From: Rhodoferax sp. TS-BS-61-7
GTDB taxonomy: Bacteria; Pseudomonadota; Gammaproteobacteria; Burkholderiales; Burkholderiaceae_C
Length of the DNA stretch: 64,000 nt
Direction: 5' to 3'
Assembly: GCF_002943465.1 (NCBI RefSeq)
Contig: NZ_PTQY01000005.1
Span: forward strand, 248,001-312,000
Shown: piece after piece, positions 34,228 through 46,341 of the stretch
Layout: every line of letters starts with the position of its first letter
Numbering within the stretch: the stretch's first letter is position 1
Notes under the pieces: generated by a model
The model's input: the letters and a program-made list of their open reading frames with translations, nothing else
What the model was told of the DNA's origin: nothing
Databases searched by the model: none
Program-made: the position numbers and the translations under genes

Positions 34228-34255
34228 TTGATAGCAGGAGTGTTTTCCATATACT
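34228..34255 (+). promoter_or_regulatory. Candidate imuAB promoter
   Basis: -35 TTGATA (34228-34233), 16-base spacer, -10 TATACT (34250-34255) directly overlapping the LexA box. The -35 lies in TTTTGATAGC, which looks like a degraded family A repeat. The boxes are seen directly; use as promoter is inferred. Confidence 0.6.
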
Positions 34256-34269
34256 GTGTATAAATACAG
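34254..34269 (+). promoter_or_regulatory. LexA (SOS) box upstream of imuA
   Basis: CTGT-GTATAAAT-ACAG matches the CTGT-N8-ACAG SOS box, with the AT-rich core typical of LexA sites. It lies 21 bases before the imuA start and overlaps the -10 of the candidate promoter. Confidence 0.93.
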
Positions 34270-34290: not shown

Positions 34291-35010
34291 ATGACTAGCC
34301 TTGCGCGCATCAGCACCGGTTCGCCGGACCCGCAAGACATCCACGCCGATGTCTGGCATGCGCACGCGCTGGCAGGCAGCCCGCAGGTGGTGCAGCCTAC
34401 GGGCGATGCGCTGCTGGACGCGCAGTTGCCCGGCGGTGGCTGGCCCGTAGGCGCGCTGGTGGAGCTGCTGCAGCCCGCTGGTGTGCACAGCGAATGGCGG
34501 CTGTTGCTGCCCGCACTGGCGCGCTGTGGCCAGGGGCCGGTGGTGCTGGTGGGGGCGCCTTACCTGCCGTTTGTGCCGGCCCTGGCGGCGCTGGGCTTGC
34601 GCGCCAGCCGCCTGCTGGCGGTGGGTGCAGTTCAAGACGGAAGGCTCTGGGCCACCGAACAGCTGCTGCGTTGTGCCGAGGTGGACGCGGTGCTGGCTTG
34701 GCTACCGCAGGCGCGCAGCGACCAGCTGCGCCGCCTGCAAATGGCCGCGGCCGAGCACCACAAGCTGCTGTTTGTGATGCGCCCGGCTTCACTGCAGGCC
34801 GACGCCTCGCCCGCGGCCCTGCGGCTGGTGCTGCAGCCCCAGCCGCCAGCGCAGAGCCCAGGGCTGGATGCGCTGGCGGTGCACATCGTCAAACGCCGCG
34901 GCCCGCCATTGGCCCAGCCGCTGCAGCTGCAGGCGCGCGCGGCCCGCCTGGCCGTGCTGTTGGCGGCGGAGGGTGCCTATGCACTGGATCGCACTGCGGC
35001 CCACGCCTGA
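34291..35010 (+). CDS. imuA: Translesion synthesis accessory protein ImuA
   Basis: A 239-residue RecA/SulA-fold protein that works with ImuB and DnaE2 in damage-induced mutagenesis. It has the ImuA features: a VWHAHALAGSP start, the LPGGGWPVGALVELL segment replacing a true Walker A, and a C-terminal helix rich in Arg/Leu. The LexA box 21 bases upstream places it in the SOS regulon. It overlaps imuB by 32 bases, giving tight coupling. Recognised from context and sequence; individual function in this organism is inferred. Confidence 0.9.
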   Translation: MTSLARISTGSPDPQDIHADVWHAHALAGSPQVVQPTGDALLDAQLPGGGWPVGALVELLQPAGVHSEWRLLLPALARCGQGPVVLVGAPYLPFVPALAALGLRASRLLAVGAVQDGRLWATEQLLRCAEVDAVLAWLPQARSDQLRRLQMAAAEHHKLLFVMRPASLQADASPAALRLVLQPQPPAQSPGLDALAVHIVKRRGPPLAQPLQLQARAARLAVLLAAEGAYALDRTAAHA

Positions 35011-36349
35011 TGCCGCCGCCTCGCCCGAGCCCACCCTGGCCGATGTGCACACCGCGCTGGCCTGGTGGGCACTGCGCTTCACGCCGCTGGTGGCGCGGGT
35101 GGAGGACGCGCTGGTGCTGGAGGTGTCAGGTAGCGAGCGCTTGTTTGGCGGGCGCAGCGCCTTGCTGCAGCAGATTTTTGAGCCAAATCAGCCTCTGGCG
35201 CCCGTGGAATATGCGCAAGGTGCTACGTCTTTGATAGCGTTGGGGCGCCTGTGGAATGGGCGCGAGGTGGCGCCCGAAGCGCTGTCGGCGCATGTGCTGG
35301 CCGCCGCCCGGCCGCACCTGCCCACGCTGGCGCGCTTGGGCGTGCGCACCTGGGGCCAGCTGCGGGCGCTGCCGCGTGGCGGGCTGGTGCGGCGTTTTGG
35401 CGCGGAGCTGGTGGATGCGCTGGACCGCGCCTGGGGCCAGCGCCCCGAGGTCTACCCCTGGCTCACGCTGCCCGAGGTGTTTGACGCGCCGCTGGAGCTG
35501 GCGGCCAGCGTGGAGTCGGCCCCGGCACTGCTGTTTGGCGCACGCCGCCTGCTGGCGCAGCTGCTGGTGTGGCTGCGCGCACGCCAGCACGGCGTGCTGG
35601 CGCTGGAGCTGCTGTGGGACCTGGACGCACGCCGTGCCAACACCCGCCACGTGGACGCCCACCACACGGGTGGCCAGCAGGGCCGACTGGAGCTGCGCAC
35701 CGCCCAGGCCACGCAAGACATGGCGCATTTGCAGCGCATTCTGGGCGAGCAACTGGCGCGGGTCACGCTACCCGCACCCGTGCTCTATCTGCGCCTGCGC
35801 AGCCTGCAAACCCAGCCGCTGGCGGGCGAGAGCCACAGCCTGCTGCCCGACGAGGTGCGCAAGGGTGACAGCCTGCACCAGACGCTGGAGCGCCTGGCCG
35901 CGCGCCTGGGCGCCGCGCAGGTGCAGTGCGCCACCCCGCTGACCGACCACCGGCCCGAGCAGATGCAGCGTTGGGCGCCGTGGCAGGCCGATACGCCAGC
36001 ACAAAATGCTATGAAATCAGGAGCTGCTGGCGCAATATTTATAAGGGCTAGAGGCCTAAAAGACTATGAATTGCACCCCCAGGCCAGCGTCTGGCCTACC
36101 TGGCTCTTGCCCAGCCCGCAGCGTCTGCCGGTGCGTGGGCACTGCCCGCAGTACCAGGGCGCGCTGGCCCTGCTGGTGGGGCCGCAGCGGCTGGAGGCGG
36201 GCTGGCTGGACGGCACGCCGGTGCTGCGCGATTACTTCATCGCCCGCAGCCCGCAGGCGGGGCTGGTGTGGGTGTACCGCGAAAAGCTGGGTAGCGAAGC
36301 CGCCACCGCGCAGGACGCGCCCTGGTACCTGCACGGGCTGTATGCGTGA
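34979..36349 (+). CDS. imuB: Y-family polymerase-like protein ImuB
   Basis: A 456-residue Y-family relative. The palm-like region has VEDALVLEVSGSERLFGG in place of the polymerase catalytic motif SIDEAYLD, so it is probably not itself an active polymerase; ImuB is thought to be a hub that binds ImuA, DnaE2 and the sliding clamp. A helix-hairpin-helix DNA-binding part (LARLGVRTWGQLRALPRGGLVRRFG) and little finger follow. Two family A repeats are translated within it (35180-35241 and 36006-36062), the second adding GAAGAIFIRARGLKDYE near the C terminus. The ATG at 34979 overlaps imuA. Confidence 0.9.
   Translation: MHWIALRPTPDAAASPEPTLADVHTALAWWALRFTPLVARVEDALVLEVSGSERLFGGRSALLQQIFEPNQPLAPVEYAQGATSLIALGRLWNGREVAPEALSAHVLAAARPHLPTLARLGVRTWGQLRALPRGGLVRRFGAELVDALDRAWGQRPEVYPWLTLPEVFDAPLELAASVESAPALLFGARRLLAQLLVWLRARQHGVLALELLWDLDARRANTRHVDAHHTGGQQGRLELRTAQATQDMAHLQRILGEQLARVTLPAPVLYLRLRSLQTQPLAGESHSLLPDEVRKGDSLHQTLERLAARLGAAQVQCATPLTDHRPEQMQRWAPWQADTPAQNAMKSGAAGAIFIRARGLKDYELHPQASVWPTWLLPSPQRLPVRGHCPQYQGALALLVGPQRLEAGWLDGTPVLRDYFIARSPQAGLVWVYREKLGSEAATAQDAPWYLHGLYA
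35180..35241 (-). repeat. Dispersed repeat family A copy inside imuB
   Basis: On the reverse strand: ACGCTATCAAAGACGTAGCA, CCTTGCGCATATTCCACGGG, CGCCAGAGGCTGATTTGG. It lies antisense within imuB, in frame, and all blocks are present. Confidence 0.7.
36006..36062 (+). repeat. Dispersed repeat family A, full copy in imuB
   Basis: Reads ATGCTATGAAATCAGGAGCT, GCTGGCGCAATATTTATAAG, GGCTAGAGGCCTAAAAGA; on the sense strand, in frame with imuB. Among the best preserved copies in the window. Confidence 0.85.
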
Positions 36350-42413: not shown

Positions 42414-42983
42414 CTAGTGCTCCAGGCCCATCACGTCGGCCAGGTCGCCGCGCTGCAGCGGTTTGGCAAACGAGCCCAGCACGCGCAGACCGTCGGACAC
42501 GGCCACTTCGGCGGCAATCGACAGCATCAGGCTGTCGCCGCCGCTGAGCAAAATCACCCCGCCGCGGTACTGCGCCTTGGCCAAGTGGCCCAAAAAGTCG
42601 ATGCCATCGGTGTGTGGCATGACCATGTCACAAATCAGAAAGTCGGGCGGTGCGGGCATCTGGGCCAGCACCTCGGCGCCGCTGCTGCCGTCGCGTGCGG
42701 TGTGCACCTCGGCCACGCCCAGGCTCAGCAGCATTTCGCGCAGCACGGTGTGGCTGAAATCGTCATCGTCCACCACCAGCACGCGCAGCGGGCCGGTGTG
42801 GGCCTCTTGCTGCTGGCTGGCTGCTTCGGCACGCATGGCGGCCATGTGGCGGCGGCGCTCCAGGCTTTCCAGCACGGAGGTCAACACGAACTCGGACAGC
42901 GATTCTTGCGAGTCGAGCAGAGACTCAATGTCCGCACGCAGGGCGGCAGTGATGGGGATGGCAGGCAGCGAAGACAGTTGCAT
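42414..42983 (-). CDS. Receiver-domain protein with ribbon-helix-helix-like N terminus
   Basis: A 189-residue protein. Residues 66-189 form a response-regulator receiver domain: acidic pocket Asp72-Asp74 (VVDDDD), phosphoacceptor Asp119 in FLICDMVMPHTDG, switch Ser147 in ILLSGGD and Lys174 in SFAKP. Residues 9-50 read like an antitoxin-type ribbon-helix-helix segment (IPITAALRADIESLL, SLSEFVLTSVLESLERRR). There is no output domain behind the receiver. It is divergent from dnaE2, and the LexA box at 43026 lies 43 bases before its start, so SOS control is possible. The ribbon-helix-helix call is a pattern impression. Confidence 0.8.
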   Translation of the reverse strand: MQLSSLPAIPITAALRADIESLLDSQESLSEFVLTSVLESLERRRHMAAMRAEAASQQQEAHTGPLRVLVVDDDDFSHTVLREMLLSLGVAEVHTARDGSSGAEVLAQMPAPPDFLICDMVMPHTDGIDFLGHLAKAQYRGGVILLSGGDSLMLSIAAEVAVSDGLRVLGSFAKPLQRGDLADVMGLEH

Positions 42984-43025
42984 GGTCGAAGTGTAAGGGA
43001 ATGTTAATGTCTTTACAGATATGAC

Positions 43026-43041
43026 CTGTATATAACTACAG
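43026..43041 (+). promoter_or_regulatory. LexA (SOS) box between dnaE2 and the receiver-domain gene
   Basis: CTGT-ATATAACT-ACAG fits the CTGT-N8-ACAG SOS box. It lies in the divergent control region of dnaE2 (start 43087) and the receiver-domain gene (start 42983), so LexA may control one or both. Confidence 0.93.
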
Positions 43042-43086
43042 TTATTGGTCATAATTACATTCCCTGATGCACTGGGGCACGCCAAT

Positions 43087-46000
43087 ATGCTTCCAGACTA
43101 CGCAGAACTGTACAGCCTCTCGTCCTTCAGTTTCCAGCGCGGCGCCTCGCAGCCCGAAGAATTGGTGCAGCGCGCCCACGCGCTGGGCTACCGCGCGTTG
43201 GCCATCACCGACGAATGTTCGGTGGCCGGTGTGGTGCGTGCGCACGTGGAGGCCAAGCGCCTGGGCCTGCAGCTGCTGCCGGGGGCGGAATTTGCAGTGG
43301 CGCTGCCGGGTGGCGCGCAGTTCACGCTGGTGGCGCTGCCGCACACGTTGTCGGGCTGGGGCAACCTCTGCGAGTTCATTACCCAGGCCCGCATGGCGGC
43401 ACCCAAGGGCGAGTACCGCACCACCTGGGCAGCGTCGCCCTGGGCGCTGCTGGCGGACTGTGAAGTGCTGCTGGCCTTTCCATCTGCTATCAATACAGAA
43501 GCTGCTTGCGCAATATCCATAAGGGCCAGAGGCTTATTTGGTTCAAATTGTTGGCTGGCGGCCAGTGTGGGGCTGGTGGCGGGGGATGCGCTGCAGCGTG
43601 TGCGCGTGCAGCAACTTTCTGTGCTCAGTGGTCTGCCGGTGCTGGCCACGGGCCAGGTGTGCATGCATGTGCGCTCGCGCAAGCCGCTGCACGATGTGCT
43701 GACCGCCGTGCGCCTGGGCCAGCCGGTGTCGGCCTGCGGCTTTGCACTGCAGGCCAATGCGGAGGGGCACCTGCGTTCGCGTGTGCGGTTGGCGGCGTTG
43801 TTCCCGCCGGAGTGGTTGGCCAATACGCTGGCCGTGGCGCAGCGCTGCACGTTCAGTCTGGACGCATTGCGTTACCACTACCCGCTGGAGGCCGTGCTGC
43901 CGGGCCAGACGGCGGCGCAGACCCTGCGCCATTACGTGGAGGAGGGCGCACGTGAGCGTTACCCGGCGGGCATGCCCGAGGACATCCGCCCGCGGGTGGA
44001 GCACGAGCTGGCGCTGATCGAGGAACTGCGCTTCGAGATGTATTTCCTCACGGTGCACGACATCGTGAAGTTTGCGCGGCGCGAACACATCCTGTGCCAG
44101 GGGCGCGGCTCGGCGGCCAACTCGGTGGTCTGTTACTGCCTGCACATCACCGAGGCCAACCCACATGAGAGTTCGCTGCTGTTCGAACGTTTCATCAGCC
44201 GCGAACGCAACGAACCGCCCGACATCGACGTGGACTTTGAGCACCAGCGCCGTGAGGAAGTGATCCAGTACATCTACGCCAAATACGGCCGCGAGCGTGC
44301 GGCCATTGCGGCCACCGTCATCAGCTACCGCCCGCGCAGCGCTCTGCGAGATGTGGGCCATGCGTTGGAGATTCCTGAGGACCTGATCACCGCCATGGCC
44401 AAGGAGCACCCCGGCATGTACGGCCGGGAGGTGCTGGCAGAGCGACTGCAATTTGCTATAGAAAAAGTAGCTGGTGGCGCAGGTGTGGCGGGTGCCGGGA
44501 GCCTGGGCGGCAGAGCGCCCAGCTCCGTGTCCCCCGCCCGCGGTGCGGGCTCCTCCTTGACCTACGCTGAACGCCCTGCCGCCCAGACTCCCGGGGGGCA
44601 GGGTGGTCTTGCACCTCATCTCTCGCGCCGCCTGCAACTCTGGCTGGAGCTGAGCACCACGCTGCAGGGCTTTCCGCGCCACCTGAGCCAGCATGTGGGC
44701 GGTTTTGTGCTGACGCAGGGACCACTCACCCGGCTGGTGCCGGTGGAGAACGCGGCCATGCCAGACCGCTCCATCATCCAGTGGGACAAGGACGACCTGA
44801 GCGCCGTGGGCCTGATGAAGGTGGACGTGTTGGCCCTGGGCATGCTCAGCGCCATCCGCCGTTGCCTGGAGATGGTGACGCAGCGACGTGGCCTGGCAGA
44901 ACCGTTGCGCATGCAGGACATTCCGCGCGGCGACGAAGCCACCTACGACATGATTTGTGCGGCCGACACGGTGGGCGTGTTCCAGATCGAGAGCCGCGCA
45001 CAGATGAGCATGCTGCCGCGCCTGCAGCCCCGCTGTTATTACGACCTGGTGGTGGAGGTGGCCATCGTGCGGCCAGGGCCCATCCAGGGCGGCATGGTGC
45101 ACCCGTATCTGAAGGCGCGCAAAGACCCGGAAGCCGCCAAGTCACCCTATCCCGCGCTGGAAAAAGCCTTGCACCGCACGCACGGCGTGCCGATTTTTCA
45201 GGAGCAGGTGATGCAGATCGCCGTGCTGGCGGCCGGCTTCACGCCGGGCGAGGCCGATGGCCTGCGCCGCTCCATGGCCGCGTGGAAGCGCCATGGCAAT
45301 GTGAGCCAGTACCACGACCGGTTGGTGGGCGGCATGGTGGAGCGGGGCTACCCGCTGGACTTTGCCGAGGCCATCTTCAAGCAGATGGAGGGTTTTGGTG
45401 AATACGGTTTCCCCGAAAGCCACGCGGCCAGCTTTGCGCTGCTGGTCTACATCAGCAGCTACCTCAAGTGGCACGAACCGGCCTGTTTTCTGGCCGCGCT
45501 GCTCAACAGCCAGCCGCTGGGTTTTTACGGCCCGGCGCAGTTGGTGCAAGACGCGCAGCGCCACGGCGTGACGGTGCGCGCGTTGGATGTGGCGCACAGC
45601 GATTGGGACTGTACGCTGGAGGGGGATGACGTTCGCTTGGGGCTGCGTCTGGTTAGCGGTTTCACGAAGCCAGTGGCAGAGCGCATCACCGATCAACGTC
45701 GGTTGGCTCCCTTCACCAGCACCCAAGACCTGGCTCTGCGCTGCCAGCTTGACGCGGGCGACCTCAAGGCCCTGGCCAGTGCGGATGGGCTGCAGTCGCT
45801 CAGCGGCCACCGCCGCCAGCAGGTGTGGGACGCCTCGGCCCTGCTGCCCGCACCCGCGCTGCTGCAGGGCGTGCCGATTGACGAAGATGAACTGATGTTG
45901 CCCGCCGCGGGTGAGGGCGAAGAGGTGAGCTTTGACTACGCCGCAGTTGGGCTCACTTTACGCTCCCACCCCTTGCTGTTATTGCGTGAGCCGCTATCAA

Positions 46001-46341
46001 AACAGAAGCTGCTGACGGCCGCGCAGATGCGCGACTACCCCAGCGGCCGGCTGGTGCGGGCCTGCGGCATCGTTACTGCACGCCAGCGGCCGCAGACGGC
46101 CAAGGGCGTGATCTTTGTGACGCTGGAGGACGAGACCGGCAGTGTGAATGTGATTGTGTGGAAGAGCGTGCACGAACAATTTCGCGACGTGGTCTACCGC
46201 GCGCGGCTGATGGCGGTGTATGGCGTGTGGCAGCGCGACGACGAAAGCGGCGGCCAGGTGCGCCACGTGGTGGCCAAGCGGGTGGTGGACCTCACCCACC
46301 TGCTGGGTGACCTGGCCACCACCAGCCGGGACTTCCATTAA
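43087..46341 (+). CDS. dnaE2: Error-prone DNA polymerase III alpha-type subunit DnaE2 (ImuC)
   Basis: A 1084-residue C-family polymerase that extends past lesions together with ImuA and ImuB. The PHP domain is N-terminal (YAELYSLSSFSFQRGASQPEELV), the palm catalytic acids lie in PPDIDVDFEHQRREE near residues 379-383, followed by ILCQGRGSAANS-type and SQHVGGFVLTQGPL motifs, and the C terminus has an OB fold (VIFVTLEDETGSVNVIVW). It is longer than usual because of repeat insertions at 43484 and 44452-44594 that stay in frame. The start at 43087 gives the family-like N terminus; an ATG at 43045 abuts the LexA box and is less likely. Confidence 0.95.
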   Translation: MLPDYAELYSLSSFSFQRGASQPEELVQRAHALGYRALAITDECSVAGVVRAHVEAKRLGLQLLPGAEFAVALPGGAQFTLVALPHTLSGWGNLCEFITQARMAAPKGEYRTTWAASPWALLADCEVLLAFPSAINTEAACAISIRARGLFGSNCWLAASVGLVAGDALQRVRVQQLSVLSGLPVLATGQVCMHVRSRKPLHDVLTAVRLGQPVSACGFALQANAEGHLRSRVRLAALFPPEWLANTLAVAQRCTFSLDALRYHYPLEAVLPGQTAAQTLRHYVEEGARERYPAGMPEDIRPRVEHELALIEELRFEMYFLTVHDIVKFARREHILCQGRGSAANSVVCYCLHITEANPHESSLLFERFISRERNEPPDIDVDFEHQRREEVIQYIYAKYGRERAAIAATVISYRPRSALRDVGHALEIPEDLITAMAKEHPGMYGREVLAERLQFAIEKVAGGAGVAGAGSLGGRAPSSVSPARGAGSSLTYAERPAAQTPGGQGGLAPHLSRRLQLWLELSTTLQGFPRHLSQHVGGFVLTQGPLTRLVPVENAAMPDRSIIQWDKDDLSAVGLMKVDVLALGMLSAIRRCLEMVTQRRGLAEPLRMQDIPRGDEATYDMICAADTVGVFQIESRAQMSMLPRLQPRCYYDLVVEVAIVRPGPIQGGMVHPYLKARKDPEAAKSPYPALEKALHRTHGVPIFQEQVMQIAVLAAGFTPGEADGLRRSMAAWKRHGNVSQYHDRLVGGMVERGYPLDFAEAIFKQMEGFGEYGFPESHAASFALLVYISSYLKWHEPACFLAALLNSQPLGFYGPAQLVQDAQRHGVTVRALDVAHSDWDCTLEGDDVRLGLRLVSGFTKPVAERITDQRRLAPFTSTQDLALRCQLDAGDLKALASADGLQSLSGHRRQQVWDASALLPAPALLQGVPIDEDELMLPAAGEGEEVSFDYAAVGLTLRSHPLLLLREPLSKQKLLTAAQMRDYPSGRLVRACGIVTARQRPQTAKGVIFVTLEDETGSVNVIVWKSVHEQFRDVVYRARLMAVYGVWQRDDESGGQVRHVVAKRVVDLTHLLGDLATTSRDFH
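43484..43542 (+). repeat. Dispersed repeat family A, full copy in dnaE2
   Basis: Reads CTGCTATCAATACAGAAGCT, GCTTGCGCAATATCCATAAG, GGCCAGAGGCTTATTTGG. It lies on the sense strand and in frame, adding INTEAACAISIRARGLFGS to the PHP region of the polymerase. Confidence 0.85.
44452..44486 (+). repeat. Dispersed repeat family A, left-half copy in dnaE2
   Basis: TTTGCTATAGAAAAAGTAGC then TGGTGGCGCAGG match the left half of the family; the right half is replaced a few bases later by the inverted-repeat element at 44495. Confidence 0.5.
44495..44594. repeat. 100 bp inverted-repeat element inside dnaE2
   Basis: Terminal arms of 23 bases (44495-44517 and 44572-44594) are inverted copies matching at 21 positions, with the arm core CTGGGCGGCAG. 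The 54-base middle holds a second hairpin GCCCGC-GGT-GCGGGC (44536-44550), so the whole can fold into a branched stem. The element is translated in frame as an Ala/Ser/Gly/Pro-rich loop just before the conserved FPRHLSQHVGG block of the polymerase. Confidence 0.88.
45990..46013 (+). repeat. Possible short fragment of dispersed repeat family A in dnaE2
   Basis: CCGCTATCAAAACAGAAGCT followed by GCTG matches the left part of the family over 24 bases. It is too short to exclude chance. Confidence 0.3.

Follow-up and report, generated by a model that had tools for sequence, protein, structure and literature searches.

A ribbon-helix-helix-like domain joined to a receiver domain in a protein encoded beside dnaE2 in Rhodoferax

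Rhodoferax sp. TS-BS-61-7 carries, divergent from the gene for the error-prone DNA polymerase DnaE2, a small gene for a receiver-domain protein with an unusual N terminus. This locus raises the question of what output such a protein has and whether it ties two-component signalling to error-prone repair. The initial annotation of the window (the whole stretch of 64,000 nucleotides analysed here) described a ribbon-helix-helix (RHH)-like segment joined to a receiver domain at 42414–43041; that span takes in both the start and the end of the gene, but coding ends at 42983 and the remainder is part of the intergenic region. Based on the features below, the fusion protein is most likely an intact response regulator that arose recently within a small clade.

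42414..42983, minus strand: RHH-like/receiver fusion gene, translated as 189 aa plus stop; the orthologues in loci L038 and L039 are 84% and 86% identical
42846..42983, minus strand: residues 1–46, predicted YlcI/YnfO-type (ParD-like) N-terminal domain (NF041551; model; ParD-entry matches; dN/dS 0.08–0.14)
42789..42845, minus strand: residues 47–65, variable linker (dN/dS 0.31–1.03; 2-codon indel)
42423..42788, minus strand: residues 66–187, receiver domain (PF00072; fold match to 3eqz_A; dN/dS 0.07–0.09)
42627..42629, minus strand: codon of D119, the expected phosphorylation site (translation and orthologue alignment)
43026..43041, no strand: perfect LexA box between the regulator gene and dnaE2, CTGTATATAACTACAG (CTGT-N8-ACAG scan)
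43087..46341, plus strand: dnaE2, error-prone DNA polymerase, divergent from the regulator gene (NF004225, 1388.6 bits, cut-off 939)

Domain content and altered antitoxin residues

The receiver family PF00072 matches residues 68–158 (E 1.4e-14), and D72/D73, D119, S147, and K174 are identical in the alignment of the three orthologues, so that the complete phosphorylation site (D119, S147, K174) described in the initial annotation is intact in each of them. From established receiver biochemistry, we take D119 to be the phosphorylated residue. In the full-length model (pLDDT 71.2), the receiver part has its best solved match in 3eqz_A (Z 16.4, 120 residues, 2.3 Å). Its top NCBIfam match is NF052596 PvrR, at 69.6 bits far below the cut-off of 580 for that family. 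A PADLOC search gave a weak match only, confined to the receiver part (E 0.0014), and a plasmid search returned 15 records that match the receiver part only, none covering 80% of the protein.

The receiver subtype is common to the fusion and to single-receiver and receiver-EAL (PvrR-like) proteins, and short receivers of the genus match it down to 9.3e-45. Apart from the three fusions, however, no match listed in the genome searches reaches residues 1–13; a few alignments start at residues 14–34, mostly in frames longer than 1300 aa or with internal stops. In other congeners (loci L050, L053, L060, and L062), related short receivers adjoin larger receiver proteins with frames of about 400–470 aa.

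The segment before the receiver resembles a family of antitoxins. In isolation, the N-terminal 60 residues match the curated profile NF041551 (YlcI_YnfO_N) at 32.7 bits (E 5.6e-8, cut-off 30); the genome searches gave 32.6 bits, the full-length protein scores slightly below the cut-off at 29.1 bits, and the N terminus of the L039 orthologue reaches 35.5 bits. No Pfam family matches the segment, PHROGs gave no match for two of the three orthologues and one at E 0.17 for the third, and a plasmid search with the N terminus alone returned none at E 1. One standalone relative (L139) was found on viral contigs, while three further viral-contig scans returned none.

Standalone proteins with this domain are widespread, with a YlcI_YnfO_N match at E 0.001 in 60 of the 103 genus genomes and at 1e-6 in 93 of 299 genomes of the family sample. 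We inspected 31 neighbourhoods, namely 30 loci of the genus (L070–L099) and the viral L139. A protein starting with MKTAT is readable in 27 of them, the other four being off-pattern, and in all 27 it overlaps an ORF of 102–106 aa by exactly 4 nt; the two such ORFs that were scanned both match ParE_toxin. This overlap with a ParE-type ORF means that the domain ordinarily forms the front of a ParDE-type antitoxin, and it suggests that the YlcI/YnfO_N family is an antitoxin family. Among 20 long frames with the domain, selected from the genus and family-sample matches, every one has 25–53 residues after the match and no room for a receiver. The N-terminal 42 positions, the core residues, and a gapless register are common to these antitoxins and the fusion, which has the receiver in place of their different C-terminal part and showed no ParE-type partner ORF beside it.

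Within this shared register, a set of residues has changed in the fusions. The comparison uses a profile from seven standalones with no residue fixed, by which 47 of 51 loci were aligned; L086, L176, L177, and L179 remained unaligned, the last three resembling another antitoxin type by eye. P7, R16, L23, E27, and R44, each present in all 47 standalones, are kept. K2 and R10, equally invariant in the standalones (47/47 each), are replaced identically by Q and P in all three fusions; E34 and R38 (45/47 each) are both replaced by L in the same three; and P13 (43/47) is also changed. The net charge of residues 1–45 is −3, −2, and −3 in the fusions versus a mean of +0.36 in 42 standalones, a set drawn with a pattern that fixes P13, proline at 7, R/P/K/T/Q at position 10, and R/H at position 16.

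As a rule RHH domains bind DNA, with strand side chains reading it in the major groove, and the contacts made with the operator differ greatly from one member of the fold to another. On this general binding mode, rather than on a structure of the YlcI/YnfO family, R10 would face the DNA. A proline at this place, together with the lost basic residues, makes canonical base reading by the fusion doubtful; the evidence is suggestive, coming from three close sequences, and is not proof. The invariance of P10 weighs little because these three sequences are the only ones that carry the fusion. With residues that are fixed in the standalones, the strand arginine included, replaced in all three fusions, the DNA-binding protein of the initial annotation is not supported in the form in which it was proposed.

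The reading that we tentatively prefer is a young dimeric response regulator, in which the RHH-like domain of a YlcI/YnfO-type (ParD-like) antitoxin has been joined via a loose linker to a receiver. The RHH part would most likely act as a constitutive dimerisation module, D119 would be phosphorylated, and the phosphorylated dimer would contact a protein partner. If the canonical base-reading surface is lost, as the altered residues suggest, output through protein-protein contact becomes more likely than classical operator binding.

A phosphorylation-controlled DNA-binding regulator, whose RHH dimer binds DNA with changed specificity, perhaps in the intergenic region between the regulator gene and dnaE2, and is switched by the receiver, is a possible second choice. 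An RHH-type domain retained under selection (see below) agrees with it, as does the divergent placement, which is typical of a local regulator, and 7-bp inverted repeats lie near the LexA box in L100, L102, and L103. Against this stands the loss of the antitoxin-family residues K2, R10, and R38 from all three fusions. Moreover, we rejected the inverted repeats as evidence for an operator: repeats at least as good arose in 51, 37, and 27 of 300 shuffles, so that none is significant individually, neither their sequence nor their spacing from the box is constant, and L101, without the regulator gene, has a 7-bp repeat too. The dimerisation module and the DNA-binding regulator are not sharply separable on present data.

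Fold of the N-terminal segment and selection on it

Both of these readings assume a folded N-terminal domain. Structure prediction and fold comparison, which the initial annotation had named as a check on the segment, gave a mixed picture, with helices like those of ParD (Z 4.5–5.2) but neither a strand nor a significant Foldseek E-value. The model of residues 1–62, built from four sequences, has a pLDDT of 85.8 and contains helices at 13–22 and 29–61; in the N terminus the monomer models contain no strand. Foldseek returned nine matches, all with E above 1 (2.4 or worse) and none at E ≤ 0.001, three of them being chains from ParD or ParDE entries. On realignment these rank first: 8c24_E (Z 5.2 over 49 residues, 1.6 Å), 7b22_A (4.6), and 7r5a_D (4.5), with 8c24_E and 7r5a_D taken as antitoxin chains from their length. 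According to the comparison tool's own warning, Z values below 8 can reflect merely a common arrangement; here they carry weight because the NF041551 profile match is independent of them.

The solved ParD antitoxins (8c24, 7b22, and 7r5a) share the same two-helix arrangement with the fusion over 47–49 residues (1.6–2.4 Å), with 13–16% identity and a beta-ribbon that the monomer model of the fusion lacks. A single-sequence search of the segment against the sequences of solved structures returned no match, and a profile search returned four (E 0.039–1.1), three of them in other kinds of protein and the fourth, 2k6l_A, over the second helix (E 1.1).

Comparison of the three orthologues shows selection on both modules. 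Their dN/dS values are 0.08, 0.14, and 0.09 for residues 1–46 and 0.09, 0.09, and 0.07 for the receiver, versus 0.31, 1.03, and 0.95 for the linker. The low values on either side of a high one indicate two conserved modules joined by a free linker.

These results bear on an improbable third explanation, in which the N terminus forms nothing more than a coiled coil or a helical linker and the protein is an ordinary single-receiver protein that lies beside dnaE2 by chance. The closest receivers of the genus are indeed mostly short, lack this N terminus, and in several cases lie beside genes for larger receiver proteins; the second helix of the model continues to residue 61; and the gene is rare and missing from the dnaE2 site of the nearest dnaE2 relative (G312, discussed below). 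This explanation does not account for the curated NF041551 match above the cut-off in the isolated N terminus, for the helix break at residues 22–29 and the 47–49 residues that align with ParD entries, or for the sharp dN/dS contrast between linker and N terminus. Profile and model thus argue that the N terminus is a real domain and not a mere linker, and the antitoxin-type RHH-like segment of the initial annotation is supported.

Least probable of all is a relic or partner of a toxin-antitoxin system in which the RHH part would pair with antitoxins or with a ParE toxin: the same domain does head the standalone proteins that overlap a ParE-type ORF, but in the fusion the receiver has taken the place of what follows the domain there, the neighbourhood of the fusion gene showed no ParE-type gene (a convergent ORF comes next, and neither of two minus-strand ORFs downstream matches a Pfam family), and the genome contains a single NF041551 match at E 0.001.

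The LexA box and the SOS context

The sharing of a LexA box with dnaE2 was borne out, as a perfect CTGT-N8-ACAG site at 43026–43041 lies between the two starts, 42 bp from the ATG of the regulator gene and 45 bp from that of dnaE2 (43087). It is one of only two perfect sites in the 64-kb window; the other precedes imuA.

34254..34269, no strand: second perfect LexA box, before imuA (CTGT-N8-ACAG scan)
34291..35010, plus strand: imuA (NF033429 ImuA_translesion, 192.5 bits, cut-off 150)
34868..36349, plus strand: probable imuB, start uncertain (ORF)

By sequence and position we take the ORF at 34868..36349 to be imuB; searches of Pfam (E 0.01) and NCBIfam (1e-4) gave no match for it. Other genes, spanning about 6.7 kb, separate imuA and the probable imuB from dnaE2, and each part has its own perfect LexA box.

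When the 103 bp between the two genes (42984–43086) were shuffled 20,000 times, a perfect site arose 17 times. The window as a whole shows no enrichment of sites with at most one mismatch (12 found, 26 expected). Throughout the genome, a narrower LexA pattern has 27 matches by strand versus 2 for a reversed control. Several of these sites precede imuA and ORFs that, judged by eye, we take to be umuD, radA, topoisomerase parE, and an alkB-like gene; others lie inside or before unrelated ORFs.

Because the regulator gene shares its intergenic region and LexA box with dnaE2, its transcription probably rises after DNA damage, and joint SOS induction with dnaE2 is probable from this arrangement. 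The box could also serve dnaE2 alone. A promoter scan found no sigma-70-like promoter on either strand, and no ribosome-binding site is obvious by eye before the ATG of the regulator gene. Ahead of this ATG, 17 bases (ACATTCCCTTACACTTC) show no difference among the three orthologues, despite wide divergence at synonymous sites, and may represent a promoter element. By eye, the dnaE2 side of the same region in the window (42984–43086) also contains ACATTCCC as an inverted copy.

A broader proposal, which we consider unlikely on balance, is that an antitoxin RHH domain captured by a receiver has become a phospho-switch under LexA that acts at the shared promoter to tune the error-prone polymerase DnaE2; SOS mutagenesis would then be gated by a second, environmental signal. 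If the protein does act on dnaE2, mutagenesis could be adjusted in response to a signal other than DNA damage.

Distribution beside dnaE2 and nearest known systems

The full-length fusion occurs in three of the 103 genus genomes, the present one included. The other carriers are Curvibacter sp. GWA2_63_95 (genome G307, locus L039) and Rhodoferax sp. TH121 (G309, L038). Among the scored matches in overlapping samples of the family (299 genomes, E limit 1e-10), order (399, 1e-20), and class (369, 1e-25), only the present genome carries it; in these searches and in that of the genus, part of the candidates was scored per genome where they were many (for example, 11 of 55 for the present genome in the family search). 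A pattern scan of an 84,980-species collection, which detects close relatives only, returned the two orthologues and one receiver-only locus. A general link to dnaE2 in related genomes, which the initial annotation had named as a check, is not supported: the fusion gene adjoins dnaE2 in all three carriers, but 84 of the 103 congeners have dnaE2 and the nearest dnaE2 relative lacks the gene.

The box itself is more widespread. Within 250 bp of the motif used for orientation, 29 oriented dnaE2 loci of 30 contain a perfect box upstream in 21 cases, a site with one mismatch only in 6, and none in 2. G307 and G309 have a box with one mismatch, and the one-mismatch boxes of L102 and L103 lie at about the same distance from dnaE2 as the box at 43026–43041. 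Since most of these dnaE2 loci have the box, it is an old property of dnaE2 and the regulator is a latecomer beside it. Several upstream regions among L104–L129 have longer palindromes at the LexA box, with arms of up to 11 bp in L117.

We compared this distribution with a tree of 28 DnaE2 fragments from the 30 loci (L124 was too short, and L128 could not be oriented). On it, the three carriers group with G312 in a single clade (support 100/100), in which G312 is the sister of the present genome (98/92). Presence of the regulator gene requires two changes on this tree, most simply one gain and one loss, with two gains also compatible. At the G312 site, the place next to dnaE2 is occupied by a gene that in L038 and L039 comes after the regulator; a search for regulator remnants there gave only chance-level matches inside dnaE2 (E 1.6 and 1.9). 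The G312 assembly is 82% complete, and the dnaE2 site itself is present. The gene is therefore dispensable next to dnaE2, and the G312 site provides a natural comparison. Neighbouring ORFs differ among the dnaE2 loci L104–L129, which indicates that the dnaE2-adjacent site changes often.

An output part that precedes the receiver, as in the fusion, is known from bacterial PhyR, which has a sigma-like domain instead of an RHH domain. In the archaeal HTH-REC regulators FilR1 and LtrR, the output part likewise stands first but is an HTH (PMC5847659, available text); thus, while an output-type segment does precede the receiver as the initial annotation noted, the reversed order as such is already on record. 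Lokiarchaeum RHH-HisKA-REC proteins combine RHH and receiver in one chain; unlike the fusion, they are archaeal and contain HisKA (PMC5847659), and they are not known to be linked to SOS. In the accessible part of PMC11237479, RHH and receiver domains occur in different proteins. In Myxococcus xanthus, DdiA is induced independently of LexA and directly or indirectly raises dnaE2 expression, but it is an XRE-family HTH protein, not a response regulator, and its gene lies beside pomXYZ, not dnaE2 (PMC12288472, available portion).

A literature search of titles and abstract starts, partial in coverage with subscription journals mostly outside it, listed no paper on the present protein, on a bacterial RHH-receiver fusion, or on a response regulator beside dnaE2; the nearest printed case found is the archaeal RHH-HisKA-REC arrangement, as given in the available text of PMC5847659. 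The present locus illustrates a possible route by which two-component signalling may acquire a DNA-binding module from a toxin-antitoxin system.

The polymerase gene beside the regulator has features of its own. A 68-bp stretch at 43483–43550 belongs to a dispersed repeat that is translated in frame within DnaE2 and has at least 40 matches in the genome (40 of 257 candidates scored), and a peptide similar to its translation (IRARGL) can be seen by eye in the probable ImuB. Roughly in the middle of DnaE2 (43087–46341) lies a Gly/Ala/Ser-rich insert, GGRAPSSVSPARGAGSSLTYAERPAAQTPGGQ, which by eye differs among three relatives and may be another translated repeat.
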